A stretch of DNA of 28,159 nt from a virus: the IMG/VR virus record IMGVR_UViG_3300007512_001606, positions 1 to 28,159 of that record. One strand, given 5' to 3'. The position numbers and the translations under genes were made by a program. Below are positions 2,920 to 24,529 of this stretch, one piece after another (the stretch's first letter is position 1; the number at the start of each line of letters is the position of its first letter). The notes under the pieces were generated by a model that worked only from the letters and a program-made list of their open reading frames with translations, did not search any database and was not told the origin of the DNA.

Positions 2920-3270
2920 ATGGCCGTCGAGGCCCACGAGACGGAACCGGGCAAGGTCTACCGCCGGACCCGGCGAGGGACTCCGGGCACCTACTTCAAG
3001 CGGCCGAAGACCCTGACGGCTGCGAAGTTCGTCAAGCGGCTGCGCCGCAAGGTCCACCTCTACAGCCGGGATGTCTGGCTGCTGCATCTGGCGAAGGCGC
3101 ACCCCGAGTACATCCTGCTCATCCGCTACTCGCGGGGGACGTGCTCGGTGTCGGGCCGCTTCGAGGTGAAGGCGTACATCCTGGTCCCGCCGGACATGCG
3201 CCTGCGAGTCGTCAAGAGCCCGCCCGGCTACAAGGAGCGGTGGAACGCGGTCGCTACGGAGCGATCTTGA
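2920..3270 (+). CDS. Unknown basic protein (116 aa)
   Basis: Unrecognised basic protein. The N-terminal third is Arg/Lys-rich (KVYRRTRRGTPGTYFKRP, then KFVKRLRRKVHLYSRDVWLL), which would suit nucleic-acid binding. The rest looks beta-rich (YILLIRYSRGTCSVSGRFEV, AYILVPPDMRLRVVKSPP). ATG at 2920 follows the previous TAG by 4 nt, with TAGGA just before it. The 3' end overlaps the convergent gene at 3254-4033 by 17 bp, so the two terminate inside each other. Stop is TGA. Confidence 0.75.
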   Translation: MAVEAHETEPGKVYRRTRRGTPGTYFKRPKTLTAAKFVKRLRRKVHLYSRDVWLLHLAKAHPEYILLIRYSRGTCSVSGRFEVKAYILVPPDMRLRVVKSPPGYKERWNAVATERS

Positions 3271-4033
3271 ACAGGGAGCGCAGGGCGTCCGGGTCGATGC
3301 CGATGCGAGCTTCCTTCGCCGCCTTCGCTGCCGCCCCACCGACCGCCACCTCGGACACGCGCTCCGGCTCCAGCCGGTACTGGCAGTAGAGGCCGATCGG
3401 CAGCGACTCCTTGATGATGTTCTTCGCCAGGGTCTTCGGCTTGCTGTTGGGCCGCCACTTCCCGTTCGGGGCCGGGGTCACCACCTTCTCGCCGAGCTTC
3501 ACGCCCTGGACGTAGATGGTCCCCGGCTTCGGGGAGCGAGGCACCTCCGGCCGAGCCGGGCCGGTGTAGACGCGGCTCCCCCGGACCTTCACGCCGTCGA
3601 TCTCCAGCGGCTCCCACACGACCCCGAGCGGAGGGGCACCGTTCGGCGGGTGGCACCCGCCCCCGTCCGCCATGATGCGGCGGAACCACTCGCGGACCTC
3701 CTGAAGCGCGTGGCACACGTCCTCGATGGTCGTGCCCTCGTGCTCCTCCAGGGTCGCTCGGGCCAGCCGCTCGATGTAGCCGCCCTTGGCGAGCTGCTGG
3801 TTGAGCATCTTCTGCGACCGGGCGATGAGCGCCCGGTAGGAGAAGCCCGTCCAGACGAGGACGTGGACCTGGTCGTCGCCGTAGATGACCTTGGACCCGG
3901 CCGAACCACGGGCGTCGCCCATCTTCTGGACGATGGCCGTGAACAGCGTCCCCTGGTCCATCTCGGCGAGCGTGGAGAGGGACGAAGCGGTCTTCGTGTC
4001 GGTCGCGTTGGTCTGCATGGCGGTCGCTGACAT
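3254..4033 (-). CDS. Unknown protein, paralog B of a phage family (259 aa)
   Basis: Second member of the family seen at 551-1354. Shared blocks are GSKVIYGDDQVHVLVWTGFS (about residue 46), SYRALIARSQ, VVWEPLEIDGVKVRGSRVY (about 135), PGTIYVQGVK, VVTPAPNG and LPIGLYCQYRLEP. B lacks the Cys-rich insert of A and instead has GGGCHPPNG. No catalytic motif is recognised; the repeated conserved central block suggests a folded beta-rich domain. ATG at 4033 has AGGAGG 5 nt upstream, so the N-terminus is secure. It is convergent with 2920-3270 (17-bp overlap) and divergent from 4120-4653. Stop is TAG. Confidence 0.85.
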   Translation of the reverse strand: MSATAMQTNATDTKTASSLSTLAEMDQGTLFTAIVQKMGDARGSAGSKVIYGDDQVHVLVWTGFSYRALIARSQKMLNQQLAKGGYIERLARATLEEHEGTTIEDVCHALQEVREWFRRIMADGGGCHPPNGAPPLGVVWEPLEIDGVKVRGSRVYTGPARPEVPRSPKPGTIYVQGVKLGEKVVTPAPNGKWRPNSKPKTLAKNIIKESLPIGLYCQYRLEPERVSEVAVGGAAAKAAKEARIGIDPDALRSLFKIAP

Positions 4034-5794: not shown

Positions 5795-6094
5795 ATGGAG
5801 CCACTCTGCTGCCAGCGATGGCGAGCCGCGAAGAACCATGTGGAGGTCACCCTCAAGATCCTCCACGTCTTCGGGGCGAGGACGCCCCGACACGCCGTCA
5901 TGGCCTACGAGGGCATGGACAAGACCGTCGTCGCCATCGGGACGATGGAGCGGTGCCCCTGCCAGGATGCGCCCCACCCGGAGGCGTTCAGGGAGCTGGT
6001 GCGCAGGGTCGGCAACCGCCGAGAGGAACTCGGGCTGAACGGCGTCAACGAGATCGCCGAGCAGGTGATGAAGGAGTTCGGGATCGAGGGCTAG
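5795..6094 (+). CDS. Small unknown protein (99 aa)
   Basis: Unrecognised. The N-terminus contains EPLCCQRWRAAK, then a beta-like stretch (HVEVTLKILHVFGARTPRHA), VVAIGTMERCPCQDAPHPEA and a helical C-terminal half (FRELVRRVGNRREELGLNGV). The four cysteines (two CC/CxC pairs) could bind metal. It begins 7 nt after the release factor stop, with no clear ribosome site, so it may be translated by reinitiation. Its TAG stop overlaps the TAG of the convergent gene at 6091 within one CTAG. Confidence 0.65.
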   Translation: MEPLCCQRWRAAKNHVEVTLKILHVFGARTPRHAVMAYEGMDKTVVAIGTMERCPCQDAPHPEAFRELVRRVGNRREELGLNGVNEIAEQVMKEFGIEG

Positions 6095-7002
6095 CGGTGT
6101 GAAGCCGCCCCGTGGCAGAACGCCCGGCGGCCTTCCTGCCGGATGTGCCACCCCTGCTCGATCTCCGAGTAGGCCAGCCTGCTGGGGACGAGCCACCCGA
6201 GGCCCTCGGCCGGGTAGTCCATCATCCAGTCGGTGTTGCCGTCGTCGTAGTCGTCATCGTCGTCGTAGTCATCGTCGTAGTAGTCGTCATCGTCGTCCCA
6301 CGCGGTCTTCGAGGCGTAGCGCGACGGGGCACCGGCAGGCCGGGGCGTCTTCGAGGGGGCGAGAGCCTGGACCTGGCTCCAGTTGTCCTTGAGCCACTTC
6401 TCGATGAGCTTGGCGGGCACCTTCTTCGCCGTCCGCATCATCAGCGTGACTTCGAGCTTGGTGAAGTGCCACTCGTCCACGACCTCGAACCGGGCCTCGA
6501 CCTTCAGAGCCCGGTTCACCACCGCCTCCGGGGTCAGCTTGCCCGCGAAGAAGGCAGCCTCGCCCTTGTCGATGGTTCGCAGGCCCTTGCGGATGAGCGT
6601 CGTGACCTTGGCCGCGTTGCCCATGAACGCGATGGCCCCGGCCATGTTGCGGAACTTCTGCTCGGCGTTGAAGGAGGTCGCCTTGTAGGTCTTGCGCGGC
6701 ACGTCCCAGTAGACCTGGAGCGGGATCTTGGGGGTCGTGAAGACGCCCATGAACACGCCCGTATCGGGGAGCTGGTAGCGGAGGTAGGCCGCCTCGGGGG
6801 CCGGGCTGAACTTGTAGCTCCCGTAGCTCGGGTAGGTCTTTGAACTCCGGCTCTCCAGGTCATAGTGGATGCCGGGCAGGGCCTTGCGGAGAGCCATCAC
6901 CGCGACGTGCCCCGCGTCCTGCACGTCTCCCACGGTGATCGACGGCCCCTTCCGGGCAGCCTGGACGAACCTGCGGGCGAGTCGTTCGACGCTCGGGTGC
7001 AT
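6091..7002 (-). CDS. Putative virion-associated protein with poly-Asp tract (303 aa)
   Basis: N-terminus MHPSVERLARRFVQAARKG is an amphipathic basic helix; the same 'A-R-F-(L/V)-x-A' start occurs in the 1382-residue neighbour (EELAIRFLLAEDDIEQ), which suggests a shared family trait of virion or packaged proteins. The middle (residues 40-200) is beta-rich (SYGSYKFSPAPEAAYLRYQL, VYWDVPRKTYKAT, VVDEWHFTKLEVTLMMR). About residue 227, ASKTA precedes an extreme Asp/Tyr tract (WDDDDDYYDDDYDDDDDYDD). The last 45 residues contain WMMDYPAEGLGWLVPSRLAY. ATG at 7002 has GGAGG 6 nt upstream and is 1 nt from the preceding stop. Exact function is unknown; I recall similar architectures in metagenomic phage sequences but cannot check. 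Confidence 0.75.
   Translation of the reverse strand: MHPSVERLARRFVQAARKGPSITVGDVQDAGHVAVMALRKALPGIHYDLESRSSKTYPSYGSYKFSPAPEAAYLRYQLPDTGVFMGVFTTPKIPLQVYWDVPRKTYKATSFNAEQKFRNMAGAIAFMGNAAKVTTLIRKGLRTIDKGEAAFFAGKLTPEAVVNRALKVEARFEVVDEWHFTKLEVTLMMRTAKKVPAKLIEKWLKDNWSQVQALAPSKTPRPAGAPSRYASKTAWDDDDDYYDDDYDDDDDYDDGNTDWMMDYPAEGLGWLVPSRLAYSEIEQGWHIRQEGRRAFCHGAASHR
6241..6300 (-). repeat. Trinucleotide-rich tract coding poly-Asp/Tyr
   Basis: Runs of GTC/GTA/ATC on the plus strand (GAC/TAC/GAT on the minus) code the Asp/Tyr tract of the 6091-7002 protein. Such tracts change length easily by slippage. Confidence 0.75.
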
Positions 7003-7003
7003 G

Positions 7004-10000
7004 TCAGACCTCCAGGGCCGCCTTGAAGTCGATGTTCCCGCGCTCGGAGTTGAGCAGGGCGTCCCGCACCTTCTTGTCGAAGGCGGTGAGCGACTGCGGG
7101 GTGAAGTAGGAGTCCGGGTTGTCGTACCCGCGAGGCCGGTTCGAGGGCGAGTTGCGCAGATCGATGTCCGCCTGCTTCATCGCCATCAGGGCCTCCCAGT
7201 CGGCCGACACCAGGTCGGCCTCGGACATCCCCATCCGCTCCGCCGCGAAGGGGACCCACCCGTTCATCTGGATGGTGCCGTCCTTGCGGGGGTTCGCGCA
7301 GAAGTCGAAGACCCCGTCGATCTCCTTCGGCTTGATGCCCCGGCCCCACGACTGCCGGTACAGCAGGTCGATGTCGGCCAGAGCCGCGTCCATCACGTCC
7401 GCCGGGCCGTCACCGCCGTACAGCTCCTCGTCCTCGTGGTGGCCGGGGATGGCGTTCATCAGGCCACCCTCGTAGTCGGGGGGGGCGTGAATGCCGCCGC
7501 CGGAGTCCCCGTCGCCGATGCTCCACCAGCCCGCCGTCTTGATGACCTCGGAGGCCAGCTTCTCGATGGCCTCGGCGAAGCCCGCCGTGCCGTAGGGGGC
7601 CAGGAATCCCTTGCCCGGCTGGGCCGACCCCTCGACCTCCACGTCGAACGAGCCGTCCGCCCCGGTGTGCCAGACCGCCCCACCGTGCTGCCGGAGCAGG
7701 GTGTCGGCGTCCTCGAACTTGCCGTCCGCCCACCGCTCGGCCCACTTGCCGCCGCCGATGAGCCGCTGGAGCTGCTCGGGAGCGATGGCGTAGATGCTGG
7801 CCGTGTCCGTGCCGACCTGCGCGGCCAGGCGGATGAGGCACCGGGCCATGAAGGCCCTCTGCTTGCGCCTCTCGGCCATCTTGCCCCGACCCAGGGCCGA
7901 GGCCATCTTGACGCCGCCCTGACGCTGCTGGAGCAGGTACAGGTGCGTCTCGTGGTCGTTCGCCATCGTGCGCAGGAAGTCGTCCATGCCCAGCGAGAGC
8001 TGGCCGATGTCCTCCATCGCGTCGAGGGCGTCCTTGATGTTGACCATCAGGGTGTTCTCGACCAGGAGCCCCCGCTCGAACGGGCAGCCGATGTCCCACT
8101 GGTGCAGGGTGAAGGCCATGAGCTTCGCCTGCTCGCGGGCGTCCACCGCCGCGATGCCGTAGGATCCCACGAGCTTCTCGGCGAAGATGTCGGTCTCCTT
8201 GACGACCTGGTCGTACATCCGCTCGAACAGCAGGTGGTCGCCGTAGCTGGAGTCGCCGCCGATCTGCCAGTGGCTCGTCAGGTGGTTCCACTGCACGGCC
8301 CGGAGCATCGCCAGGAGGTTGCTGAGCACGACCTTCGCCGCGTTGATGGCACCGGGCTTGCCCTCGGCGTAGCCCTTGATGTCGTTCCAGTTGATGCGGG
8401 CCGCCGTCTTGCCCATCGGCTTGAACAGGCTCTTCTGGAACTGGAAGACCCGGTCGTACTTGAGATCCTCGTAGAAGGTCGAGCCGTCGTAGGGGCTGCT
8501 GCCCGGAGCCGTGCCGTTCTTCGGCAGAGCACGGGCGTTCGGCTTGAACCACCGGACGTGGTCGAGCAGGTCGTACTCGGGCGGCTCGGGGTACGGCTTG
8601 CGGGTGAACAGCCACTTCGGGTTCCAGACGCCGTCCGCCGCCTTCTCGTAGACCGTCCACCGCCAGTCGCCCGAGACGTTCCGCATCGGCTTCAGGATGA
8701 CCTGTGCCCCTGCCTTCGCCTTGTCGATCCAGTCCGCCTTCGCGATCCGGGCTCGGCGAAGGTCGAGCAGGTAGGTCCGGCCCGCCGTCTTCGAGGCGAG
8801 CTTGCCCTCGGGGCTCTCGCCCAGCTCCTCGGCGGAGATCCGGTCGGCCTCCGGCTTCATCTTGTTGCCGAGCGCGACCGCGTCGCGCAGGGCGGACTTG
8901 CCCTCGAAGTTCTTCGACTCCCAGCGACGGCCGGGGACGCCCGTGTACCAGGTCACCTCGACGTACTCGCCCGCCCCGCCCGTGTGCCGCCAGTGGGTGA
9001 AGCTCACCGCGTAGAAGCGGGCGTCCCGCCGCTGGTACGCCTTGTTGCGGTAGTCCAGGCTCCAGCCGTCCTGCTTGAACCGCTTGCGGACCTCGCCCAT
9101 CGTGATGCGCAGCACTCGGGCCACCCGCCCGGCGCTCTCACGCCAGGCGGCCAGGGCCGCCACGTCCATGAGGTAGACGTTGGCCTTGCCGATGTCCTTC
9201 TGCTCGCGGGGAGAGAGCGGGTCATCCCCCCTGCCCGCCAGGCGTCGCCACCAGGTCGAGGCGATCTGCTGCGTCGCCGCCGTGACGACGTGCTTGCGGT
9301 CCTCGATGAGTTGCCGGTGGAGCCGGTTCATCTCCCGCTCGTCTTCGGCCAGGATGGCCTTGCCTTCCCCGGTGACGCCGACGAAGTACCAGATGTTCCC
9401 CTTGCGGTCCTGGATGCCGTCACCCAGGTAGACCATCGGGCGGCGGTGCTCTCGGGCCTGACCGAAGAACACGTCCACGGGAGTCAACCCCTGCCGCTTG
9501 AGCATGGCGGCGGAGCCCGTCTCGCTGGGCGGGCCACGGCGGCCCCCGGTGACCTTCTTGCCCTTCTTCTTGCCGTCCTTGACCCACCGCCAGAACTGGC
9601 CGATGGGCATCTCGGTGTACTCGTCCTCGACGTAGAAGCCAGGCCGGTCGTACTGCTTCTTGTAGGCCCCGATGGCTTCCTCGATGGAGTCGAAGCCGAT
9701 CATCACCTTGTCCTCGTCGTACTTCCCGGTGGCCGGGTTGTGCTGGTGGATGACGACGACGATGGAGCTGTCGTGGTTGTCGCCGACGTACACGTCGAGC
9801 TTGTCGCCGTCCGTCCCCTCGGTCCCCCGGATCTCGCCGTAGTGGGCGTGCATGTACGTGGACCAGTCCCCCTCGGGGCCGGTGCCTGACCTGGTCGAGC
9901 CCTTGACGTTCTCCACGTCGATCTTGAGGCCCTGGAAGTCGATGTAGCCCTCGAAGGGGAACTCCTTGCGCTTCGCCTTCGGCGGCTCGACGACCACCTT

Positions 10001-11152
10001 GTGGAAGGTGTTCGGCACCTCGACGACCTTCGCGTTCGACTTCGCCCGCTTCGTGAGCCTCGCCTTGGTCTTGATCTGGACCCAGATCGAGTACCAGCCG
10101 CCGTCGCCGTAGCTCACCTCCACCTGCTTGATGCCGCCCATCAGCCCGCCGAGCCGCTTCTTGAGCGCGGCGGTGTACCTGGCCTCCACATCATGCTGGT
10201 CCGTCTCGCGACGGCCGAGGTCCTCATCCTCCCAGCGCACCCCGCCGCTGCGGAAGCTGTGGCTCACCGTCAGACCGGAGTCCTCGATCTGCCCGTCCCG
10301 GCCGTAGAGGTCCCCCTGCCTCCAGGCCCAGCCATGCACCACCGACAACACATGGCGGGCCACCGCCATGCGGTCGTCCGTGGCCGCGCCCTCGCCCTTG
10401 AGGCCAGGCCAGCCGAGGAGCTGCTTCAGGAAGTGGTCGGCGGCGTTCGCAGGAGTGGCCGCCGACCTCATGCCCATCTGCGCCAGGTAGGGGGGCTCCC
10501 GCCGGATCGTGCTCTCCTGCACGATGGTCTCGGCCTTCTTGCCGTTGCCCTTGTCGATGCGGAACACCGCCTGGAAGGCCGCCCCCTTCGTGTCTCGGCC
10601 GTAGTGGCCGTAGACGGTGTCCTCCACCGTCCACGGGAGCACCTGGAGCGTCTTCGGGTCTTCGAGCTTCGCCTTGATCTTCCGGGTGATCTTCGGGACC
10701 AGGGCCTTGAGGGCGGCGGGCCAGGCCTTCTTCGAGAGGCCCCGGATCATCTTCGCCGCGTTCGCCGCCGCCTTCTCGAACCGCCGGACCATCACGTCGG
10801 CGTCCTTCGCGGCCCGTGCTGCGGTCTTGTCCTCGGGGAACAGCTCGATGATGGAGGCCACCTGCTCCTTGAGCTTCTTCGCCGCCGCCAGGCCGTTGCG
10901 GGCCTTCGCCACCGCGTCGATCTGCGACTTGATGTCGGTCGGGATGCCCGCCGCCGTGCGGACGTGCATGTTGAACGTCTCGACGACACCCTCGATGTTG
11001 CCCGCCAGCTCGTCGAGAGCTGCCAGGTCGGTCAGGACGCCCCGCATCGCCGGGGACATCGCCTGCTTCTGGCGAGCCTGCTCGATGTCGTCCTCGGCGA
11101 GGAGGAACCGGATCGCCAGTTCCTCACGCGGGTCTGTATTCGCTGTCGTCAT
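7004..11152 (-). CDS. Giant polyvalent/virion-type protein with InPase-like and ferritin-like regions (1382 aa)
   Basis: Regions by residue. 1-190: helical, with a repeated Lys/Ala pattern. About 395-525: GYIDFQGLKIDVENVKGS, then GDWSTYMHAHYGEIRGTEGT, DGDKLDVYVGD, YDEDKVMIGF, which matches the inorganic-pyrophosphatase-like domain known from phage and plasmid 'polyvalent proteins'. About 600-780: mixed alpha/beta with the segment VYLMDVAALAAWRESAGRVA. About 920-1075: four-helix ferritin/Dps-like pattern (LRAVQWNHLTSHWQ, YGDHLLFERMYDQVVKETDI, FAEKLVGSYG, MANDHETHLYLLQQRQ). About 1205-1290: WWSIGDGDSGG and GDGPADVMDAALADIDLLYR. KTA motifs occur four times. ATG at 11152 has GAGG 8 nt upstream. 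Probably carried in the virion or injected (inference); no portal or protease domain is recognised. Confidence 0.8.
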   Translation of the reverse strand: MTTANTDPREELAIRFLLAEDDIEQARQKQAMSPAMRGVLTDLAALDELAGNIEGVVETFNMHVRTAAGIPTDIKSQIDAVAKARNGLAAAKKLKEQVASIIELFPEDKTAARAAKDADVMVRRFEKAAANAAKMIRGLSKKAWPAALKALVPKITRKIKAKLEDPKTLQVLPWTVEDTVYGHYGRDTKGAAFQAVFRIDKGNGKKAETIVQESTIRREPPYLAQMGMRSAATPANAADHFLKQLLGWPGLKGEGAATDDRMAVARHVLSVVHGWAWRQGDLYGRDGQIEDSGLTVSHSFRSGGVRWEDEDLGRRETDQHDVEARYTAALKKRLGGLMGGIKQVEVSYGDGGWYSIWVQIKTKARLTKRAKSNAKVVEVPNTFHKVVVEPPKAKRKEFPFEGYIDFQGLKIDVENVKGSTRSGTGPEGDWSTYMHAHYGEIRGTEGTDGDKLDVYVGDNHDSSIVVVIHQHNPATGKYDEDKVMIGFDSIEEAIGAYKKQYDRPGFYVEDEYTEMPIGQFWRWVKDGKKKGKKVTGGRRGPPSETGSAAMLKRQGLTPVDVFFGQAREHRRPMVYLGDGIQDRKGNIWYFVGVTGEGKAILAEDEREMNRLHRQLIEDRKHVVTAATQQIASTWWRRLAGRGDDPLSPREQKDIGKANVYLMDVAALAAWRESAGRVARVLRITMGEVRKRFKQDGWSLDYRNKAYQRRDARFYAVSFTHWRHTGGAGEYVEVTWYTGVPGRRWESKNFEGKSALRDAVALGNKMKPEADRISAEELGESPEGKLASKTAGRTYLLDLRRARIAKADWIDKAKAGAQVILKPMRNVSGDWRWTVYEKAADGVWNPKWLFTRKPYPEPPEYDLLDHVRWFKPNARALPKNGTAPGSSPYDGSTFYEDLKYDRVFQFQKSLFKPMGKTAARINWNDIKGYAEGKPGAINAAKVVLSNLLAMLRAVQWNHLTSHWQIGGDSSYGDHLLFERMYDQVVKETDIFAEKLVGSYGIAAVDAREQAKLMAFTLHQWDIGCPFERGLLVENTLMVNIKDALDAMEDIGQLSLGMDDFLRTMANDHETHLYLLQQRQGGVKMASALGRGKMAERRKQRAFMARCLIRLAAQVGTDTASIYAIAPEQLQRLIGGGKWAERWADGKFEDADTLLRQHGGAVWHTGADGSFDVEVEGSAQPGKGFLAPYGTAGFAEAIEKLASEVIKTAGWWSIGDGDSGGGIHAPPDYEGGLMNAIPGHHEDEELYGGDGPADVMDAALADIDLLYRQSWGRGIKPKEIDGVFDFCANPRKDGTIQMNGWVPFAAERMGMSEADLVSADWEALMAMKQADIDLRNSPSNRPRGYDNPDSYFTPQSLTAFDKKVRDALLNSERGNIDFKAALEV

Positions 11153-11173: not shown

Positions 11174-11833
11174 TCAGGTGTAGAAGTCGTTGACCTTGTT
11201 CTTCGTCGGGATACCCGTGCTCTGGTAGTGGATGTCCACGAAGTGAACGAACGGGTCCTGGTCGAGGGTATCCGCGCCACCGTTCGACCGCTTCACCAGG
11301 ACGACGAAGTTCCCGTCCACCTCCAGGTCGTCCGTGTCGAGCTGGTCGGCCGCCGGAGCTGCCGCCGAGAGCTGCACCTCGGCGATCATGTGCTGGTACT
11401 GCGTCCCGCTCGCCGTCTGCGTGACGGACGGCGTGACGTTCGTGCCGAAGGCCGCCTGGTTGTGGCCCTTCGCCCACGTCACCTCGAACAACCACTCCAC
11501 GTCGCCGGGGGACCCCCCGCCGCCTCCAGTGTCCACCACGATCTGCGACCAGTGGACGTGGATGTAGACATCCGTGCCCGGAGCATAGTCGTGGGGCATG
11601 TGGAAGACGTGCGTCGTCTCGTCGTTGGCGCTGTACTGGTACTGCCGGATGTTCCCCTTCCAGACAGCCCAGACGGGGTCGTTGCCGCCCGCCCCGCGAA
11701 TCGTCGGGGCAGGGAGGTAGACGAACTCCGGCGTCAGCCCACGCCGCGAGGGCTCCGAGCGGATGTCGTCGAGCATCAGGTTCGACGCACTGACCCCGGT
11801 GTGCGTCAGGCGAAGCTGGATTCCCTCGGCCAC
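11174..11833 (-). CDS. Putative virion structural protein, beta-rich (219 aa)
   Basis: The sequence is beta-rich with a characteristic motif HMPHDYAPGTDVYIHVHW near residue 80, followed by a Gly-rich turn (VDTGGGGGSPGDVEWLFEV) and FVHFVDIHYQSTGIPTKNK near the C-terminus. Proteins with this 'pGTD-y-HvHW' pattern occur in phage structural clusters (decoration, fibre or head-associated), from memory. Start: GTG at 11833 with AGGAGG 7 nt upstream, a strong site. It precedes the 1382-residue gene by 21 nt and follows 11886-12221 by 52 nt. Stop is TGA. Confidence 0.75.
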   Translation of the reverse strand: MAEGIQLRLTHTGVSASNLMLDDIRSEPSRRGLTPEFVYLPAPTIRGAGGNDPVWAVWKGNIRQYQYSANDETTHVFHMPHDYAPGTDVYIHVHWSQIVVDTGGGGGSPGDVEWLFEVTWAKGHNQAAFGTNVTPSVTQTASGTQYQHMIAEVQLSAAAPAADQLDTDDLEVDGNFVVLVKRSNGGADTLDQDPFVHFVDIHYQSTGIPTKNKVNDFYT

Positions 11834-11885: not shown

Positions 11886-12221
11886 TCAGCGTCGGAAGCC
11901 GGGCGGCCTCCCTCGCTTGATGTCGTACATCATCCGGGCGGTGCTGGTGGGCTTGTTGCGGGAGATGAGGCTCTCCATCCGCAGGCAACGCTGGATGGCC
12001 GTGCGGTACTCCTGCACCGTGAACTCCTTCTCGCCCTCGCCCTTGGCCGTGGCCCGAAGGAACGCGGGGTCGGGAAGCTGGTCGCGGTGCAGCACGCGGT
12101 CGCTGGGAAGCTGCCGCTTGAACTCCATCCCGTCGCCGGGCATCCAGTCGTGGGTGCGGGTGCGCTGGAGTCGCTCGATGCGGCTCGCGAGTCGTTCCAG
12201 GTCGAGGGGGCTGATGCTCAT
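11886..12221 (-). CDS. Small helical unknown protein (111 aa)
   Basis: Unrecognised; mostly helical and charged. It starts MSISPLDLERLASRIERLQR, contains WMPGDGMEFKRQLPSDRVLH and LPDPAFLRATAKGEGEKE, and ends with the basic KRGRPPGFRR. The ATG at 12221 has CGGAGA 4-5 nt upstream. It is the first gene after the promoter at 12239-12270 and probably heads the transcript that reads on into the putative virion genes to 6091. That position would suit a small head or assembly protein; this is inference from context only. Confidence 0.75.
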   Translation of the reverse strand: MSISPLDLERLASRIERLQRTRTHDWMPGDGMEFKRQLPSDRVLHRDQLPDPAFLRATAKGEGEKEFTVQEYRTAIQRCLRMESLISRNKPTSTARMMYDIKRGRPPGFRR

Positions 12222-12270: not shown

Positions 12271-12576
12271 CCACGTCCCGTGCTTCATCTTGCGGATCAT
12301 CCCCCTACGCCACAGCGAGCTGAGAGGCCCCCACGCCTTGTTGCGGTTCGTGTCGTCGCAGAAGCCGAACATGGCGATGGCGACCCCCTGCGTCGTGATC
12401 GTCTCGCCGGGGCCGAGCTTGTTGATGATGTCGAGCACCTGCTGTTGGACCCGGCCGGGCTTGCGGTGCTTCTTCGGCTTCACGGGCGACGGCAGGAGGC
12501 CCTGGAGGTGGGCGATGGCCTCGCGAACCTCCTGCTCGAAGTTCGGCCCGAACTCGATCTCGATGTGGACCTTCAT
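12256..12576 (-). CDS. Winged-helix-like small protein (106 aa)
   Basis: N-terminus MKVHIEIEFGPNFEQEVREA is a beta strand plus helix. After a basic linker (KPKKHRKPGR), residues 45-106 read as a winged-helix-like DNA-binding fold: helix VQQQVLDIINKLGPGE, turn, GVAIAMFGFCDDTNRNKAWG, recognition-like helix PLSSLWRRGMIRKMKHGTWG with a final strand. It might regulate transcription, but no close family is recognised. ATG at 12576 overlaps the previous gene's TGA (ATGA), so it is translationally coupled to the ADP-ribosylglycohydrolase gene. Its end contains the upstream box of the promoter at 12239-12270. Stop is TGA. Confidence 0.75.
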   Translation of the reverse strand: MKVHIEIEFGPNFEQEVREAIAHLQGLLPSPVKPKKHRKPGRVQQQVLDIINKLGPGETITTQGVAIAMFGFCDDTNRNKAWGPLSSLWRRGMIRKMKHGTWGSVP

Positions 12577-13601
12577 TCGTCGTCGTCCGCGAACAGCCAG
12601 TCGAGCGCACCAGGGGCGTCGTCCTCGTCGTCTTCCGCCTCGACGGCGGGAACGGGAGCGGCCCGCTTGGCGGCTCGTGCTTGCCGCTTCGCCTCGCGGG
12701 CGGCCTCCATCTGGGCCTCCCGGTCGGTCTTGCGGGGGAAGTCCGTCGCCAGCTTGCGGTCGATCTCGATGAGGTAGTCGCGGCCGAAGGGGCCGTTCTC
12801 CAGGCCGTCGATGAGCTTCTGCGGGAAGTTCTGCGGGAGGTCCCGGCAGACGGCGGCGATGGGCATCGCGATGGCCGCCACGGTGTCCACGTCGCCCGTG
12901 AAGGCCACGGAGAGCCGCAGGACGTGTGCCAGGTCCCGGCCGTTCATCAGGGCCGTCAGAGCCGCCCTGACCGTGTTCACGCCGTCCGCCTTCACCTGAC
13001 CCTTCCAGGGTCGCGCGAAGTCGAAGCCGGGAAGCTGTGCGTCCAGCCAGAGCGGAAGCTCGTCGCGCGAACCGACCTGGTGGTAGCAGTAGTGGAAGGC
13101 CAACGCAGCGGCGGCGGCTGCCGCCATGCCGCGAGCCGTCGCGTGGGTGATGGACGCCTGGAGCATCGCCCGGTCGCGGACGATGGCCGGGTCGTCGAAG
13201 TAGCCGAGGGGGAAGGCCCGCATCGCCCCGCCGTTCTTCGACGAGTGGGGCAGCAGCTTGCCCAGCAGGGCGACGCCGTCCGGCACCTCGCAGAGCAGCT
13301 TGTAGAAGCCCCCGGCGTAGCCGGTCCGGTGGTCCCGCTTGAAGGCGACGACGAACCGGGTCGCCACCTGGATGTGGTTGATCAGCCCCTTGTCGAGCAG
13401 GTGCTCGGCCAGGGCGAGGGCCATCTGCGTGTCGTCGGTGTACTGGCCGGGCTGGATGCCGCCCTTCACCTTCGACCACTTCGGGTGCGGCCGATAGGTC
13501 GAAAGGTCGTTGCCCGCCCGGACGGCCTTCGGATGCACGTACTCGAACCCCGCCCCGTAGGCGTCTCCGATGGCGCAAGCCAGCATGGGGCCGATGGTCA
13601 T
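12573..13601 (-). CDS. ADP-ribosylglycohydrolase (ARH/DraG family, 342 aa)
   Basis: The DraG/ARH fold uses two Mg ions to release ADP-ribose from proteins or nucleic acids. Family motifs are visible: IGDAYGAGFEYVHP (11-24), YTDDTQMALA (54-63) with metal ligands D56 and D57, SKNGGAMRAFPLGYF (121-135), and TGDVDTVAAIAMPI (235-248) with the second metal pair D237 and D239. The last 50 residues are a charged Ala/Arg then acidic tail (AEDDEDDAPGALDWLFADDD) not typical of the family. ATG at 13601 overlaps the upstream TGA (ATGA) and has GAGG 7-8 nt upstream, which favours it over the in-frame ATG at 13616. In a phage it may reverse ADP-ribosylation used by host defence or process NAD-derived marks (inference). 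Confidence 0.93.
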   Translation of the reverse strand: MTIGPMLACAIGDAYGAGFEYVHPKAVRAGNDLSTYRPHPKWSKVKGGIQPGQYTDDTQMALALAEHLLDKGLINHIQVATRFVVAFKRDHRTGYAGGFYKLLCEVPDGVALLGKLLPHSSKNGGAMRAFPLGYFDDPAIVRDRAMLQASITHATARGMAAAAAAALAFHYCYHQVGSRDELPLWLDAQLPGFDFARPWKGQVKADGVNTVRAALTALMNGRDLAHVLRLSVAFTGDVDTVAAIAMPIAAVCRDLPQNFPQKLIDGLENGPFGRDYLIEIDRKLATDFPRKTDREAQMEAAREAKRQARAAKRAAPVPAVEAEDDEDDAPGALDWLFADDDE

Positions 13602-13966
13602 TCGCTCACCTCGCACTCGATGGTGTTGGCGTCGGCCAGCTTCACCCAGAAGCGGCCGAGGCCCTTCGGCTTGCCCTTCTCCTGCGGAGCCCAGGCGTGG
13701 AAGGACAGGGACGAGTAGCCGGACGCCTTCGACCCCTGCCGGACGTAGATGCGGCTGACCGACAGGATGGTCCCGGCGGGCAGGGTCACCTGCTCGCTGT
13801 CATCCGAGTTGAGCCTCCACCAGGAGTCCTCGCCGCAGGCTCCCCGCTTGACGCCCACGCGCAGCTTCCGCCCGAACTTCTCGTTCCGGTACTCGAAGTG
13901 GAGCGCGAAGGTCCAGTCGGCCAACAGCGTGAGCCGGGTGCCAATCTCGGGGATGAACAGCCTCAT
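13598..13966 (-). CDS. Unknown beta-rich small protein (122 aa)
   Basis: Unrecognised, beta-rich. Sequence features: FALHFEYRNEKFGRKLRVGV, then a Cys/Trp segment (ACGEDSWWRLNSDD), TLPAGTILSVSRIYVRQGSK, and SGYSSLSFHAWAPQ, ending in AAN-like acidic residues (ANTIECEVSE). ATG at 13966 overlaps the upstream HD gene's TGA (ATGA) and has no Shine-Dalgarno. It lies only 2 nt below the 10-base promoter box at 13969-13978, so the transcript from that promoter would start at or inside the ATG (leaderless), while read-through from the HD gene would give coupled translation. Confidence 0.75.
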   Translation of the reverse strand: MRLFIPEIGTRLTLLADWTFALHFEYRNEKFGRKLRVGVKRGACGEDSWWRLNSDDSEQVTLPAGTILSVSRIYVRQGSKASGYSSLSFHAWAPQEKGKPKGLGRFWVKLADANTIECEVSE

Positions 13967-14634
13967 GCCTCTACTACTGGTCCACGGTCGATTCTGAGCC
14001 CCCTACCCGGCAGCGGCCTCGTGGATTGCCCGGATGAGCCGCACTGCGAGAGCAGGAAGATCTTGAGGTTCTCGTAGGCGGGGTACTGGCGGGGGAACTT
14101 GCGCCGGGCCACCCGGAGCATCGGGTGGAACCAGTCGGCGACCTCGTCGGCGTACCGGGCCTGCTTCTCGAAGGTGAAGACGCCCTGCATCGTCTGGAGG
14201 TTGTGCGCCCGGTCCGTCAGCTTGACGATGCTCGCGATGGGGCACTCGCCCATGTCGCGGAAGTACCGCTCGTAGTCCTTGACCAGCCCATCGGACTTCT
14301 TCGAGAGCCGCCAGACCGCGTCGGCGATCTGCGTGCCGAACTGCATCTCCAGCTTCTCCCGCGTCCACACGTCGCCGTGGTCCTCCAGCAGGTCATGCAG
14401 GAAGGCCGCCGCGATCACCTCCTCGGGGTAGAGGAAGTGCGGGGTCAGGGTCGAGAGGAACCGAGCCACCGAGAGCTGGTGGTCGAACTTCGGGGTGACG
14501 CCGTCCTTGCGGGTGCCCTGCTCCAGGCCACGGACCAGCTCCAAGGCGTTGGCCGCGACGTAGTAGCCCTTGCCTTCCAGCCAGCCACGCATCACGGCGA
14601 GCTGCTTCTTGTGGTGTGCTTCGACCTTGGGCAT
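13963..14634 (-). CDS. HD-domain (p)ppGpp-hydrolase-like protein (SpoT/MESH1 type, 223 aa)
   Basis: Matches the hydrolase half of RelA/SpoT and the stand-alone MESH1 type: H52 (FDHQLSVARFL), H80-D81 in FLHDLLEDH with E84/D85, and D141/N145 in VKLTDRAHNLQTM. Those residues hold Mn and remove the 3'-diphosphate of (p)ppGpp. No synthetase or TGS/ACT domain follows; about 220 residues is the size of a single-domain enzyme. The last 25 residues (from about 199) cross the next promoter and look like a non-conserved tail. ATG at 14634 has GGAGG 8 nt upstream. Promoter at 14656-14687. Other HD phosphohydrolases acting on nucleotides cannot be excluded. Confidence 0.85.
   Translation of the reverse strand: MPKVEAHHKKQLAVMRGWLEGKGYYVAANALELVRGLEQGTRKDGVTPKFDHQLSVARFLSTLTPHFLYPEEVIAAAFLHDLLEDHGDVWTREKLEMQFGTQIADAVWRLSKKSDGLVKDYERYFRDMGECPIASIVKLTDRAHNLQTMQGVFTFEKQARYADEVADWFHPMLRVARRKFPRQYPAYENLKIFLLSQCGSSGQSTRPLPGRGLRIDRGPVVEA
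13969..14000 (-). promoter_or_regulatory. Phage-type promoter (GGCTCAGAAT-12-AGTAGTAGAG)
   Basis: GGCTCAGAAT (14000-13991), 12 nt, AGTAGTAGAG (13978-13969) on the minus strand, inside the 3' end of the HD gene. The start codon ATG of the 13598-13966 gene follows after 2 nt, so this would give a leaderless or near-leaderless transcript. Confidence 0.7.
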
Positions 14635-15110: not shown

Positions 15111-16253
15111 CTACTCCTTGAGGGGCAGCACGCAGCCGTGGCCCTCGATGTTGAACCCACCCTCCATCCAGTCGTAGATGGTGCGCTCGTTGTCCCTCAC
15201 CGTACCCGGCGGAGCGTAGGGGATGGTGGGCAGACCTTCCACCTGGTCGTGGAAGTGGACGACGGCCTCGTGCATGAAGGAGGCGGCCCACCGGATGAGC
15301 AGCGGGGCGTTGAGCGACGCCTTGTTCCAGCCCTCCGGCACCCGGACCTCCCGCTTGTTCCAGTCCACGAGGCTGACCAGGGTCGCATTGGCCGCCGTGA
15401 ACGCTTCACCCTTCTCGCGAGGCGAGACGAGCCAGCCCTGGTTCTTGACGCTGACGGCGACGGCTCCGAAGACCCGGCCGCCTTCGACCGGGCAGAAGCG
15501 GTCGCGGTACTGCTCGACGATGCGGTCGAACTTCTTGCGGGCGGCTGAGCAGCTCGTGCGCAACGCCACGTTGCCGTTGCTGGGGGTCCAACGGACGGTC
15601 TTGAAGTGCTCGTCCTCGATGACGGCCGTGAGGGCGTCGTAGAACCCATCGAAGTCGTTGTCGTACTCGTGGGCGGAGCGGTCCTTGTAGACCAGGAGCT
15701 TGCGCTTGAGGCCGTGCCCCATGTCGTTCGCGATGACGACGTTGCAGCGGCTCCGCAGCAGCACACCGTAGGCGGCCTCGATCAGGTCGTCCTCGGTCGA
15801 GCCGACCAGCATCTTGCAGCCGATGAGCGTGAGGTTCGGGTTCGCCTGCTTCATGTCCTCGATCACCCGAGGGGCGAGGACGAAGGGGACCTGGATGATG
15901 TCGCCCGCCTTGTAGCCCTTGGTCGTCATCTTGCCGACGTAGGGGCTGGCCGGAATCCAGTTGACCACGGCCGCCGCCATGATGGCCGCGTCGTGCTGGG
16001 GAGCCATCACGACGCACTGGAAGTGGTAGCTCCTGAACCCGCCGTGCTTGATGACCGTGAGGTTCTCCGGCCGCCCGCAGTACGTGCTCGCGTCCATCTT
16101 CGGGGTGTCGGGGATGAACAGGGTGACCTGGTGCCCGCGCTCGACCAGGTGCAAGGCGTAGCGCATCGCCCAGATGCCCCGGACACGGTTGCCCACCAGC
16201 TTGTTGTCGTCGAGCGGCCCGTAGACGCCACCTGCCGTGATCAGAACTCTCAT
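15111..16253 (-). CDS. CoaB-like (Dfp C-terminal) / class II aldolase-like fusion protein (380 aa)
   Basis: Residues 1-215 follow the phosphopantothenate-cysteine ligase (CoaB/Dfp C-terminal) plan: VLITAGGVYGPLDDNKLVGN (3-22), HQVTLFIP, IMAAAVVNWIP (91-101), KMTTKGYK, and NVVIANDM (171-178). Residues 240-380 resemble a class II aldolase/adducin domain: GAVAVSVKNQGWLVSPRE (263-280), WNKASLNAPLL (309-319), VVHFH with candidate zinc ligands H333 and H335, and EGHG with H372. CoaB activates a carboxylate with CTP or ATP and joins it to an amine; class II aldolases cleave or isomerise sugar phosphates. The substrate here is unknown. ATG at 16253 overlaps the SDR stop (ATGA) and has GGAGGG 7 nt upstream. 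Stop is TAG. Confidence 0.78.
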   Translation of the reverse strand: MRVLITAGGVYGPLDDNKLVGNRVRGIWAMRYALHLVERGHQVTLFIPDTPKMDASTYCGRPENLTVIKHGGFRSYHFQCVVMAPQHDAAIMAAAVVNWIPASPYVGKMTTKGYKAGDIIQVPFVLAPRVIEDMKQANPNLTLIGCKMLVGSTEDDLIEAAYGVLLRSRCNVVIANDMGHGLKRKLLVYKDRSAHEYDNDFDGFYDALTAVIEDEHFKTVRWTPSNGNVALRTSCSAARKKFDRIVEQYRDRFCPVEGGRVFGAVAVSVKNQGWLVSPREKGEAFTAANATLVSLVDWNKREVRVPEGWNKASLNAPLLIRWAASFMHEAVVHFHDQVEGLPTIPYAPPGTVRDNERTIYDWMEGGFNIEGHGCVLPLKE

Positions 16254-20334: not shown

Positions 20335-21594
20335 TCAGCCGAACAGGTCGCCGATCAGGTCGGGCTCGTCGTCGCCCTTCGCGGGGGCCTTGCGGCCCTG
20401 AAGACGAGCCTCCGCCAGGTCGAGGTAGTCGGGCTGGAGGTCGCAGCCGATGTAGTGACGCCCCAATCGCAGCGCGACAGCTCCCGTCGTCGCGGATCCG
20501 CTGAATGGGTCGAGGACCGTGTGCCCTTCGGCGGACCCCGCCTTCACCATGACCTCGACCAGCTCTTCAGGCCATGTCGCAAAGTGAGCGCCCCTGTACG
20601 GCTTGGGGTTGATGGACCAGACACTGCGCTTGTTCCGCCCTTGCGGGTTGCCCCACACCCTGTCGGGATCTGCACTGGGGTCCGTGGAGATCCCTTGATT
20701 CCAGCGTTCCTGCATCAGAACGCCATCGCGCTCCTTGTTGCCCGGAGCGTGCGGCTCCCCTGCGAGAGGTTCCCGGATGGCGTCTTGGTCGTAGAAGTAC
20801 CGGGCGTTCTTCGTGAGCAAGAAGATGTACTCGTGATTCTTGGTCGGCCGATCTCGAACGCTGGACGGCATACACGAGGGCTTCGCCCAAACGATGTCGC
20901 TGCGCAGATACCAGCCGTCCGCTCGAAGCGCGAACGCCACCATCCACGGGATGCCGACGAGATCCTTCGGCTTCAGGTGCCAGTACGCCTCCGGGTTCGC
21001 CTTGGCAGCAGGCCACGCCGTGTTCTTGTGGTTGGGGTTCGAGCCGCCCGCCGATTTGTCCTTCGGCCAGCGACCGTCCTCCACCATGTCGCGGCCGAGG
21101 TTCTTGTGCTTCGAGGCGGAGGTGCTTGAACCGAAGTAGCTATCGCCGAGGTTCAGGAACAGCGCCCCGTCATCTCGAAGCACCCGGCGGACCTCGCGGA
21201 AGATCAGCACGAGGTTGTCCACGAACATCTGCGGGGTCGGTTCGAGGCCGAGATGCCCCCGCCATGCTCCGCAGGCACAGAAACCGGACGTGGTCCACCG
21301 CTGCGTTTTGGTCGTCTCGGCGTCGTGGAACCCCGTCTTCTCCGACCCTGACCGAACCGGGCTGTCCTTGTACTGCCGATGCTCCTGCCATTCGTGGTCG
21401 TGGCTCGGATCGCCACCCCACACCGCAGGCTCACCGCCGTAATCACGGAGGCCCCAGTACGGCGGAGATGTCGCGGCCATCTGCACAGAGGCGTCCGGCA
21501 GGTCGGCCAGCGTCTGCAACACGTTCTGGCCGTAGTAGAGCCGGGCTGAAGGAGGGTCGTCCCCGAGCGGATGTTCAACGATGACCGGCTTCAC
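20335..21594 (-). CDS. DNA methyltransferase 1, beta class (419 aa)
   Basis: Amino-methyltransferase (N4-cytosine or N6-adenine) with circularly permuted beta-class order: catalytic TSPPYWGLRDYGG (43-55), then target-recognition regions, and SAM motif I LDPFSGSATTGAVALRLGRH near the C-terminus. SPPYW favours N4-cytosine but does not prove it. Other family blocks: LGLEPTPQMFVDNLVLIFRE, DGALFLNLGDSYFGSS, CMPSSVRDRPTKNHEYIFLL. The protein ends DLIGDLFG, as do its two paralogs. Unlike them it lacks the Cys insertion before motif I, having only a CACG pair in the variable part. Start GTG at 21594 overlaps the previous stop (GTGA). Last gene of the methyltransferase operon; stop TGA. Confidence 0.95.
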   Translation of the reverse strand: MKPVIVEHPLGDDPPSARLYYGQNVLQTLADLPDASVQMAATSPPYWGLRDYGGEPAVWGGDPSHDHEWQEHRQYKDSPVRSGSEKTGFHDAETTKTQRWTTSGFCACGAWRGHLGLEPTPQMFVDNLVLIFREVRRVLRDDGALFLNLGDSYFGSSTSASKHKNLGRDMVEDGRWPKDKSAGGSNPNHKNTAWPAAKANPEAYWHLKPKDLVGIPWMVAFALRADGWYLRSDIVWAKPSCMPSSVRDRPTKNHEYIFLLTKNARYFYDQDAIREPLAGEPHAPGNKERDGVLMQERWNQGISTDPSADPDRVWGNPQGRNKRSVWSINPKPYRGAHFATWPEELVEVMVKAGSAEGHTVLDPFSGSATTGAVALRLGRHYIGCDLQPDYLDLAEARLQGRKAPAKGDDEPDLIGDLFG

Positions 21595-23000
21595 CCGAAC
21601 AACTCCCCGATGAGATCAGGGCCGTCGTCCGCCTCGCTCTTCTTCGAGGGAGCCTTGCGGCCTTGGAGCCGCGCCTCCGCCAGGTCGAGGTAGTCGGGCT
21701 GGAGGTCCGTGCCGACGTAGTCCCGGCCGAACCGCATCGCCACGGCCCCGGTGGTCGCCGAGCCGGAGAACGGGTCGAGCACGCGGCAGTGAACCACCTC
21801 GGCGTCCTCGCACTTGCAGGTGGCCTCCCACCCGACCGTCTTCTTGATCTTCATCGTCGCGCCCATGTCGTTCGACATGCCGCCGGTCATCGTCGCCAGG
21901 CGGGCGTCCCGCGTCTCCTGGTTGTTCGTCCCCCACTTCGTCGAGATCGTCTCGACGACTTCGAGGACCCGCCGGTAGGGAGCACGGCACTTCGAGCAGC
22001 AGCCGTGCTCCGAGCTGCCCGCCTTGATCATCGGCTCGACGAGGGCCTCCGGCCAGGTCGCGAAGTGCGCTCCGGGGTACGGCTTCGGGTTCACGGTCCA
22101 GACGTTGCGCTTGTTGCGGGTTGCCCCTGTCACGAACCCCCCCGACCTGTGCTCGCCTCCGTCGTTCCTACCACTGGCCGCCGAGTAGTCGCCGGACGTT
22201 GCCCGGTCTGCCGACACTTGATACGTCGCCTGCTCCGCAATCGCCCCAGCATCGAACCAGTACCGCGCCGACTTCGTGAGCAGGAACACGGCCTCATGCG
22301 CCGAAGTGCAGCGGTCCGTGACGCTCGACGGCATGGGGTTCGGCTTGTGCCACACGATGTTGTCGCGGAGCCACCAGCCATCAGCCTGGAGCGCGAGGGC
22401 GACGCGGTAGGGGACGAGGCAGAGGTCTTTGGGCTTGAGGCCGGGGGCGTTCACCCCCGACTGGCCGGGGTGCTTCTGCTGGTCCGGGTTCCACTGCTTC
22501 TTGCCGCCGGGGTGGCCCCCGTTGCGGGCCGCGTTGTAGCTGTCGCCGATGTTCAGCCAGACCACGCCGTCCGGGCGGAGCACCCGGCGGATGCCCTCGA
22601 AGATCTCGACCAGGTGCGCGACGTAGAGCTGCGGGGTGGGCTCCAGCCCGAACTTGCCGAGCCAGGCCGCGCACTTCCCGCAGAACTGCCCGCTGCCCGC
22701 CGTCTGGCCCGCCACGTTCGCCGTCGCAGCCGCCCCGAGCTTCTTCCACGGCACCTGGCCGGGATGGTGGGCCGGGCCGACCTCACCCCACTCGTGGTCG
22801 CAGTCGGGGTCCCCGCCCCACACGCCCGCCTCCCCGCCGTAGTCGCGGAGGCCCCAGTACGGAGGCGATGTGCAGACCACCTGGATGCTGTTGGACTCGA
22901 TGAGCTTGAGGCTCTCCCGCACGTCCTGGCCGTACAGCAGCCGGGCCTGTGGCGGGTTGTCTCCGAGGGGGTGGAACACCAGGCGGTCGATCACGCTCAT
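21591..23000 (-). CDS. DNA methyltransferase 2, beta class with zinc-finger-like insert (469 aa)
   Basis: Paralog of the flanking enzymes: TSPPYWGLRDYGG (44-56), LGLEPTPQLYVAHLVEIFEG, DGVVWLNIGDSYNAARN, PMPSSVTDRCTSAHEAVFLL, and motif I LDPFSGSATTGAVAMRFGRD. Before motif I it has a Cys insertion (EHGCCSKCRAPYRRVLEVVE ... CKCED) typical of zinc-binding inserts in phage beta-class methyltransferases. The variable centre differs from paralogs 1 and 3, so the target sequence probably differs. It ends DLIGELFG. ATG at 23000 overlaps the stop of methyltransferase 3 (ATGA) and its own stop overlaps the next start, so all three are translated as a coupled series. Confidence 0.95.
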   Translation of the reverse strand: MSVIDRLVFHPLGDNPPQARLLYGQDVRESLKLIESNSIQVVCTSPPYWGLRDYGGEAGVWGGDPDCDHEWGEVGPAHHPGQVPWKKLGAAATANVAGQTAGSGQFCGKCAAWLGKFGLEPTPQLYVAHLVEIFEGIRRVLRPDGVVWLNIGDSYNAARNGGHPGGKKQWNPDQQKHPGQSGVNAPGLKPKDLCLVPYRVALALQADGWWLRDNIVWHKPNPMPSSVTDRCTSAHEAVFLLTKSARYWFDAGAIAEQATYQVSADRATSGDYSAASGRNDGGEHRSGGFVTGATRNKRNVWTVNPKPYPGAHFATWPEALVEPMIKAGSSEHGCCSKCRAPYRRVLEVVETISTKWGTNNQETRDARLATMTGGMSNDMGATMKIKKTVGWEATCKCEDAEVVHCRVLDPFSGSATTGAVAMRFGRDYVGTDLQPDYLDLAEARLQGRKAPSKKSEADDGPDLIGELFG

Positions 23001-24529
23001 CCGAACAGCTCCCCGATCAAGTCAGGCTCGTCGTCCTCGGTCGGGGCCTTGCGGCCTTCGAGCCGGGCCTGAGCCAGAGGCAGGTACTCGTGGTTGAGGT
23101 CCAGGCCGACGTAGTTGCGGCCGAGCTTCATCGCCACCTCGCCCGTCGTCCCTGAACCGCTGAAGGTGTCGAGGACCACGCACGGCTCGACCTCCTGCGT
23201 ATCACACCCGCAGGTAGGTGCCCAGCCCACCGTGACGGTCTTGCGCAGCGGGACATCCCCGCCTGCCCCCGCCCCCAGCGTGCTGTGGGCCGTCCCCCCG
23301 CCTTCCTGCGAGAGGCGGACATCCGACGTGGCGTACTGGGCCAGGTTCCGGCGGCGGTCCGTCATCGGGATGTCGCCCACCTTCTCGGTGAGCCGCTTCC
23401 AGGGGGCCTTGCAGGCGACGCAGCGGCCGTGCTCGCTCGAACCTGCCCGGATGAACCGCTCGACCAGGTGCCGGGGCCACACGGCGAAGTGCGCCCCCTT
23501 GTAGCCGCCCGTCGAGAGCTTCCACACGTCGCCGGGGTTCTTCCCGGCCGCGTCGAAGAGCCCGCGACCGACACGACGAGGGCTCGCGGCCAGGTGGCCG
23601 AGCTGCCCGTCCGTCTGGTCCATCTTCCGCTGGCCCTCGCCGGACTCGAACCACTGCTGGTTCGGCTCGAAGTTGCCCTCCTCGTCGTAGGTCCCGCTGG
23701 TGTGGGGGACCTTCACCGCGTCGAGGTCGAAGAAGTAGCGGGCCTGCTTCGCGAACATGAAGACGTGCTCGTACTTGCACGAGAAGCGGTCGCGGACGCT
23801 GCTCGGCATCGCGTTGGCCTTGTGCCAGATGATGTCGTTGCGCAACCACCAGCCGTCCGCCTGCAACGCCAGGGCAGCTCGCCACGGCACGCCCACGAGG
23901 TCCTTGTCCTTCAGGCCGGGCACCTTCGAGGGCTTCCCGATGATGGCCGCCTCGCGGTAGCCGTCCTCCTGCTTCTGCCGCTCCCCCTCGAAGCCGCCCA
24001 CCTGCGCCCCGGCCGAGGCCGAGTGGCTCATGTACGAGTCGCCGAGGTTGAGCCAGAAGGTCCCGCTCGGGTGCAGCACCCGGCGGATCTCCCGGCCGAT
24101 GAGGACCAGGTGCTTCACGAACAAGTTCGGCGTCGGTTCCAGGCCCAGACAGCCCCGCCAGGCCCAACACTTCGAGCAGAAGGACGACCGCTTCGGGGCC
24201 GCGTGGGAACGCTCCAGGGACCGCTGCACGCCCTCTGGGCTGATGCTGTTGCCCCCGCTGGCCGCCCCGAGCGTCGAGGCTCCGGTGCCCCCGCTCTGAC
24301 TCCGCCCGGCGATCTCATCGCCCCACTCGTGATCACACTCCGGGTCGCCGCCCCATACCTGGTGGCCGACGCCGTAGTCCCGCAGCGCCCAGTAGGGCGG
24401 GGACGTGGCGACCATGTTGATCGACTCGTCCGGCAGGAGCCGGAGCGCGTCGAGGACGTTCTTGCCGTAGAAGAGGCGGGCCTCGGTGGGGTCGTCCCCC
24501 AAGGCCCCGACCACGATGGTCGGGTTCAT
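22997..24529 (-). CDS. DNA methyltransferase 3, beta class with zinc-finger-like insert (510 aa)
   Basis: Largest of the three: ATSPPYWALRDYG (42-54), LGLEPTPNLFVKHLVLIGRE, SGTFWLNLGDSYMSHSAS, AMPSSVRDRFSCKYEHVFMF, Cys insert (EHGRCVACKAPWKRL ... CGCD), and motif I LDTFSGSGTTGEVAMKLGRN, where D-T-F replaces D-P-F. It has a long Ser/Gly-rich insert near residue 80-110 and another before the Cys insert. It ends DEPDLIGELFG. ATG at 24529 has AAGGAG 5 nt upstream, the only strong ribosome site of the three, so it heads the coupled series. It follows the MazG-like gene by 10 nt. Confidence 0.95.
   Translation of the reverse strand: MNPTIVVGALGDDPTEARLFYGKNVLDALRLLPDESINMVATSPPYWALRDYGVGHQVWGGDPECDHEWGDEIAGRSQSGGTGASTLGAASGGNSISPEGVQRSLERSHAAPKRSSFCSKCWAWRGCLGLEPTPNLFVKHLVLIGREIRRVLHPSGTFWLNLGDSYMSHSASAGAQVGGFEGERQKQEDGYREAAIIGKPSKVPGLKDKDLVGVPWRAALALQADGWWLRNDIIWHKANAMPSSVRDRFSCKYEHVFMFAKQARYFFDLDAVKVPHTSGTYDEEGNFEPNQQWFESGEGQRKMDQTDGQLGHLAASPRRVGRGLFDAAGKNPGDVWKLSTGGYKGAHFAVWPRHLVERFIRAGSSEHGRCVACKAPWKRLTEKVGDIPMTDRRRNLAQYATSDVRLSQEGGGTAHSTLGAGAGGDVPLRKTVTVGWAPTCGCDTQEVEPCVVLDTFSGSGTTGEVAMKLGRNYVGLDLNHEYLPLAQARLEGRKAPTEDDEPDLIGELFG

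Follow-up and report, generated by a model that had tools for sequence, protein, structure and literature searches.

Background

Phage polyvalent proteins are believed to bring activities on which the phage depends in the opening minutes of an infection, and Dps is the iron-oxidising, DNA-protection protein of bacteria. The polyvalent proteins surveyed in 2017 by Iyer et al. each hold several unrelated domains, InPase being among those named, and phage InPase proteins were argued in the same survey to be packaged (PMC5512222). A search of its main text for ferritin or Dps found no mention of either. Phages also encode solo Dps proteins of 145-220 amino acids, represented by PHROG 3636, by proteins of gut phages (PMC8008677) and by DUF5856-like proteins of jumbo phages; here too, the main text of a jumbo-phage review (PMC7824862) was searched and mentions neither Dps nor ferritin. 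The InPase domain, for its part, is carried by the portal proteins of Pseudomonas phage Pa193 (gp19; 9b41) and phage BcepF1.

P0001, the product of one gene in the 28,159-base stretch of viral DNA analysed here (the window), is like the surveyed proteins in joining unrelated domains, InPase and Dps, within one polypeptide, and the polyvalent-type architecture proposed for it in a first-pass annotation is upheld. To the surveyed proteins, P0001 and its relatives add a recurrent Dps ferroxidase module. This domain is of the same family as the solo phage Dps proteins but is fused to InPase, and InPase, which has a portal as its partner in Pa193 and BcepF1, is partnered in P0001 by Dps. Solo Dps of phages, InPase and polyvalent proteins have all been described before; what we rate as a novel variation on them is the recurrent fusion of a ligand-complete Dps into such proteins, because the main texts of the survey and the review are without Dps or ferritin. 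Literature searches that combined polyvalent protein, ferritin and phage returned nothing relevant, in a scope that excluded preprints and most subscription journals, and earlier reports are possible; a search of the same scope for Dps in jumbo phages found nothing.

The P0001 gene and its surroundings

The gene lies on the minus strand at 7004-11152 (coding 7007-11152), where the first-pass annotation had put it, as a single open frame of 1382 amino acids. GC at the third codon position is uniformly 0.94-0.97 in each 200-residue block of this frame, and for this reason P0001 is regarded as one real, uninterrupted gene. The window is the entire virus record, which is probably a fragment, and at the DNA level no similarity to known phages was found in it. 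Approximately 1000 of the 1382 residues have no detectable relative. The N-terminal region (residues 1-380; 10013-11152, minus strand), which opens with the motif ELAIRFL, had no match in phages or in viral contigs, and searches found no relatives of the middle region (residues 540-935; 8348-9535, minus), for which the structural model is of low confidence, or of the C-terminal region (residues 1086-1382; 7007-7897, minus). PADLOC found no defence family in P0001. Immediately upstream, on the same strand (11174-11833), is a gene of 219 amino acids with an N-terminal LRLTHTG segment; downstream (6091-7002, minus) is one of 303 amino acids, which has RLARRFV close to the N-terminus and ends in a tail rich in Asp. 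Family searches matched neither of these two genes.

A short motif, [VIL]A.R[YFW][LIVM], recurs near the N-termini or between the modules of large modular proteins, in forms such as RVASRYL, RVARRYM and KRVARRYL, and turns up as well in a solo Dps protein and in a UvrD helicase. It occurs at residue 12 of P0001, at residue 8 of the 6094-7002 gene, and at loci L008, L004, L049, L076 and L080 of other phages; in its strict form it was observed seven times, against 0.57 expected by shuffling. At L080 (24-4487) the N-terminus of a UvrD-like helicase, which seems to contain an intein, bears the motif as KRVARRYLA. At L008 (926-1126) an InPase is broken off after about 65 residues, and VRRVARRYM and then a complete InPase copy follow directly. 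The motif may be a tag for sorting, packaging or processing.

The InPase domain

A pyrophosphatase-like region had been noted at about residues 395-525, and the phage InPase family PF18823 indeed matches residues 402-525 (9578-9949, minus strand) with an E value of 2e-37 and 128.5 bits, against a curated cut-off of 26.8. In an alignment of 24 InPase domains, the acidic triad D448/D450/D453 and the loop K477-YDED-K482 are invariant or nearly so, with conservation at D448, D450, D453, D479, D481 and K482. The active site presumably resembles that of E. coli pyrophosphatase. The core has a predicted fold with pLDDT of about 89 or more, for which the best Foldseek match is a family I pyrophosphatase (E 4.5e-3); pyrophosphatases are also numerous in the VIA list, at modest Z values of 5.3-6.6 in a 568-residue model. 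The sole PDB match of the InPase profile is the C-terminus of the Pa193 portal (9b41; 8e-30), in which residues 529-765, InPase included, are not visible in the density (PMC11042391).

The Dps domain

The ferritin-like part of P0001 had been proposed at about residues 920-1075 from four motifs, SHW, FERMYDQ, DIFAEKL and DHETHLYL, which are located at residues 960, 976, 988 and 1066. From P0001 alone the ferritin-like signal is weak and suggestive only: phrog_3636 was matched at E 2.9e-7 and Dps chains at E 0.2 or worse, and DUF5856 (PF19174) was matched over the ligand-bearing half of the domain at E 0.0012 and 20.3 bits, under its 34.6-bit gathering threshold, with relatives scoring up to 31.8 bits. 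The first homologues of the domain were those of L008 and of the uncultured 485-kb phage LR745208, and their alignment reached 14 further loci. The resulting 15-member phage profile matched 69 distinct PDB sequences (best E 1.3e-9), and the 60 of these that were listed are all Dps-type proteins or Dps-based constructs.

Structure prediction by domain, which the first-pass annotation had recommended, returned a ferritin-like fold. The AlphaFold2 model (pLDDT 93.7) is a four-helix bundle with a short BC helix, its helices spanning model residues 2-29, 35-64, 66-69, 71-83, 90-115 and 120-143. The top Foldseek matches are Dps chains, with TM scores to Dps of 0.73-0.83, and VIA gave Z values of 17-19 for Dps matches, in whose company a few chains of bacterioferritin type are listed. 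On profile and model together, residues of about 939-1080 (7913-8338, minus strand) are assigned to the Dps branch and not merely to the ferritin-like proteins at large. A reading of the ferritin part as chance motifs was ruled out by the profile, the fold and the ligand invariance.

P0001 holds all five Dps ferroxidase ligands, H961, H973, E977, D988 and E992, in the 12-4-11-4 spacing of Dps; the equivalents of these residues are the established ferroxidase ligands of bacterial Dps. In 59 of 59 distinct homologues from phages, H961, H973, D988 and E992 never change; position 977 carries E in 37 of them, Q in 15 and D in 4 (56 of the 59). Such constancy is that of a metal site under selection; some homologues may be less active, because position 977 varies among E, Q and D. 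Iron oxidation by the P0001 domain is a prediction that the sequence supports well. In fold, ligand set and spacing the domain is the same as bacterial Dps, including Streptomyces DpsC (4cyb), Thermosynechococcus DpsA (2vxx) and Mycobacterium Dps; it differs from them in being embedded in a 1382-residue protein and in having no lysine-rich tail, and the phage family has conserved motifs of its own, YGDHLL and HE(T).YLL.QR. The same ligand chemistry would also suit a domain that withholds or stores iron against an iron-dependent host response or against competing phages, but none of the neighbouring genes suggests iron uptake, and we consider such a role very improbable.

Of the two ligands, iron or DNA, between which the earlier annotation had left the choice, iron stands as the likely, predicted chemistry on the full ligand set, and DNA falls on charge. 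The P0001 core has a net charge of -9 and its flanks +3 and +6 per 80 residues; beside the bundle there is no lysine/arginine-rich tail of the kind that marks the DNA-condensing subset of Dps. DNA binding by this copy is unlikely because the core is acidic and the flanks are weakly basic, and a DNA-binding Dps reading of P0001 was ruled out on the same ground. Such a tail is not a defining feature of Dps in general, and A. tumefaciens Dps is described, under 1o9r, as protecting DNA without binding it. Some relatives are differently charged: L053 has a strongly basic segment beside its Dps (net +21 in 80 residues), and L049 and L085 have long basic stretches. These features would fit a fold that serves as an oligomerisation or DNA-compaction scaffold in the head, with iron chemistry minor. 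A scaffold of this kind is hard to square with four metal ligands kept in every distinct sequence, or with the charge of the P0001 core and flanks, and we judge it quite improbable.

Dps as a module in other phages

A second scan for the Dps domain, after the one that reached the 14 further loci, yielded 65 loci; a scan of genome contigs yielded a single 46-residue fragment only. At 25 of 68 Dps loci examined the domain lies in a frame of more than 230 residues, a count in which near-duplicate loci are included and start codons are uncertain. The clear fusions are built in different ways. In L008 the order is swapped relative to P0001, Dps being followed by a partial and then a full InPase. 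In L049 and L085-L088 the Dps domain is C-terminal in proteins that have an HELVHAVQ (HExxH) metallopeptidase-like motif along with long basic stretches. The L053 fusion places Dps after its basic segment, and that of L096, in which the Pfam Ferritin family is matched above cut-off, places it after two modules common to L076 and L008. In L089, L090, L098 and L075, Dps is combined with a common FSTL.RY module. At most of the other loci, many on contigs of more than 200 kb, Dps is solo, and the phages with a solo Dps are mostly jumbo phages. The Dps domain is a recurrent module, reused in differently built phage fusions.

Gene order in the window is matched by that of contig G004 (L076), which has orthologues of the window genes for a cold-shock protein, thymidine kinase, a DNA methylase, an HD hydrolase and ADP-ribosylglycohydrolase and of the 3257-4033 gene; those of 12576-13616, 11889-12221 and 3257-4033 were found in collinear order. 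At the position of P0001, G004 has a gene that starts with LRLTHTG, a protein of 516 residues in which a WLM metallopeptidase domain is recognised (E 2.8e-16), and a Dps gene on its own, whose product is 50% identical to the P0001 Dps domain. The LRLTHTG segment of the 219-amino acid window gene is common to the gene preceding the syntenic locus in L050 and L076 (blastp 1e-4 over 22 residues). The syntenic place is conserved, and its modules are fused, split or exchanged. P0001 comes from one record and is largely without relatives, as might be expected of a chimeric assembly or of unrelated genes joined by chance, but its codon signature is uniform, synteny with relatives is kept and an independent Dps-InPase fusion is found in L008, so that an artefact is scarcely credible.

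Several other genes of the window deserve mention. Three tandem paralogous N4/N6 DNA methyltransferase genes are present at 20335-24529, versus one in the collinear L076. The minus-strand genes at 551-1402 and 3254-4033 both match the same stretches of L076 and L008 and are apparent paralogues of an uncharacterised family (RKKGVARGP...YGDD) kept in relatives. The minus-strand gene at 13963-14550 encodes a hydrolase of the HD-domain type that is similar to (p)ppGpp hydrolases (phrog_990, metal-dependent phosphohydrolase) and adjoins the ADP-ribosylglycohydrolase gene at 12573-13616. To judge by eye from its sequence, the minus-strand frame at about 15111-16200 looks like CoaB/phosphopantothenoylcysteine synthetase.

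Possible virion association and proposed role

P0001 had been described as lying beside putative virion genes. In the window, PHROGs found no virion family among the neighbours tested, and support for the description comes only through relatives: at least seven phages have the Dps gene near that of the major head protein or the portal. The distance is no more than about 6 kb to the gene for the major head protein in L053 (head protein match 2.2e-51), L056, L058, L091 and L093-L095, and to the portal gene in L090 and L098. The L004 phage has separate InPase and Dps proteins, with the Dps gene about 8 kb from the portal gene and with a large protein that carries the ART-PolyVal domain PF18760 adjoining the InPase gene. 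Head or portal proximity in relatives supports, without proving, late expression and packaging.

A purely intracellular use, in which the protein would be an auxiliary of iron and peroxide detoxification by which the host survives while phages are being made, without delivery in the virion, has several points in its favor. Most Dps homologues are solo genes; solo phage Dps proteins and catalases have been interpreted in this way, as a means of host oxidative-stress tolerance (PMC8008677); and the neighbours in the window and in L076 include metabolic genes, e.g., thymidine kinase and ADP-ribosylglycohydrolase. The Dps genes near head genes, and the fusion to InPase, a domain known on portal proteins, speak against it, and we hold it to be somewhat unlikely.

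Our favored reading, to which we give an even chance, is that P0001 is a polyvalent-type protein in which InPase is joined to a ligand-complete Dps, with predicted iron oxidation that would limit Fenton chemistry around phage DNA. The Dps domain is probably a phage-carried antioxidant module so far uncatalogued as such, because it is reused in differently built fusions, often beside head genes. Since Dps ferroxidase sites sit between subunits, the domain would be expected to dimerise or oligomerise. It would then bind Fe2+ and oxidise it, with H2O2 the preferred oxidant, and phage DNA, still in the capsid or newly entered, would be exposed to less Fenton chemistry. At this early stage too, InPase might hydrolyse pyrophosphate or a signal that resembles a nucleotide. 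A Dps dodecamer with a 1382-residue chain on each subunit would be bulky unless processed. P0001 may be cleaved into modules, because in relatives the Dps protein contains, or has next to it, modules that resemble metallopeptidases; a domain search of P0001 itself recognised no metallopeptidase module. A broader proposal would make Dps ferroxidase one of the regular modules that are shuffled among phage polyvalent proteins. It would travel in the capsid and leave it together with the genome, so that some phages would bring an antioxidant of their own against Fenton damage to the incoming DNA or against an oxidative defence of the host. We regard this proposal as rather unlikely.

Some proteins of jumbo phages match DUF5856, a family without a name, under its cut-off, and for these the comparisons provide a likely function. 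A conserved iron-oxidising Dps among the modules of polyvalent proteins would suggest that phage DNA is at risk early on from oxidation or iron.
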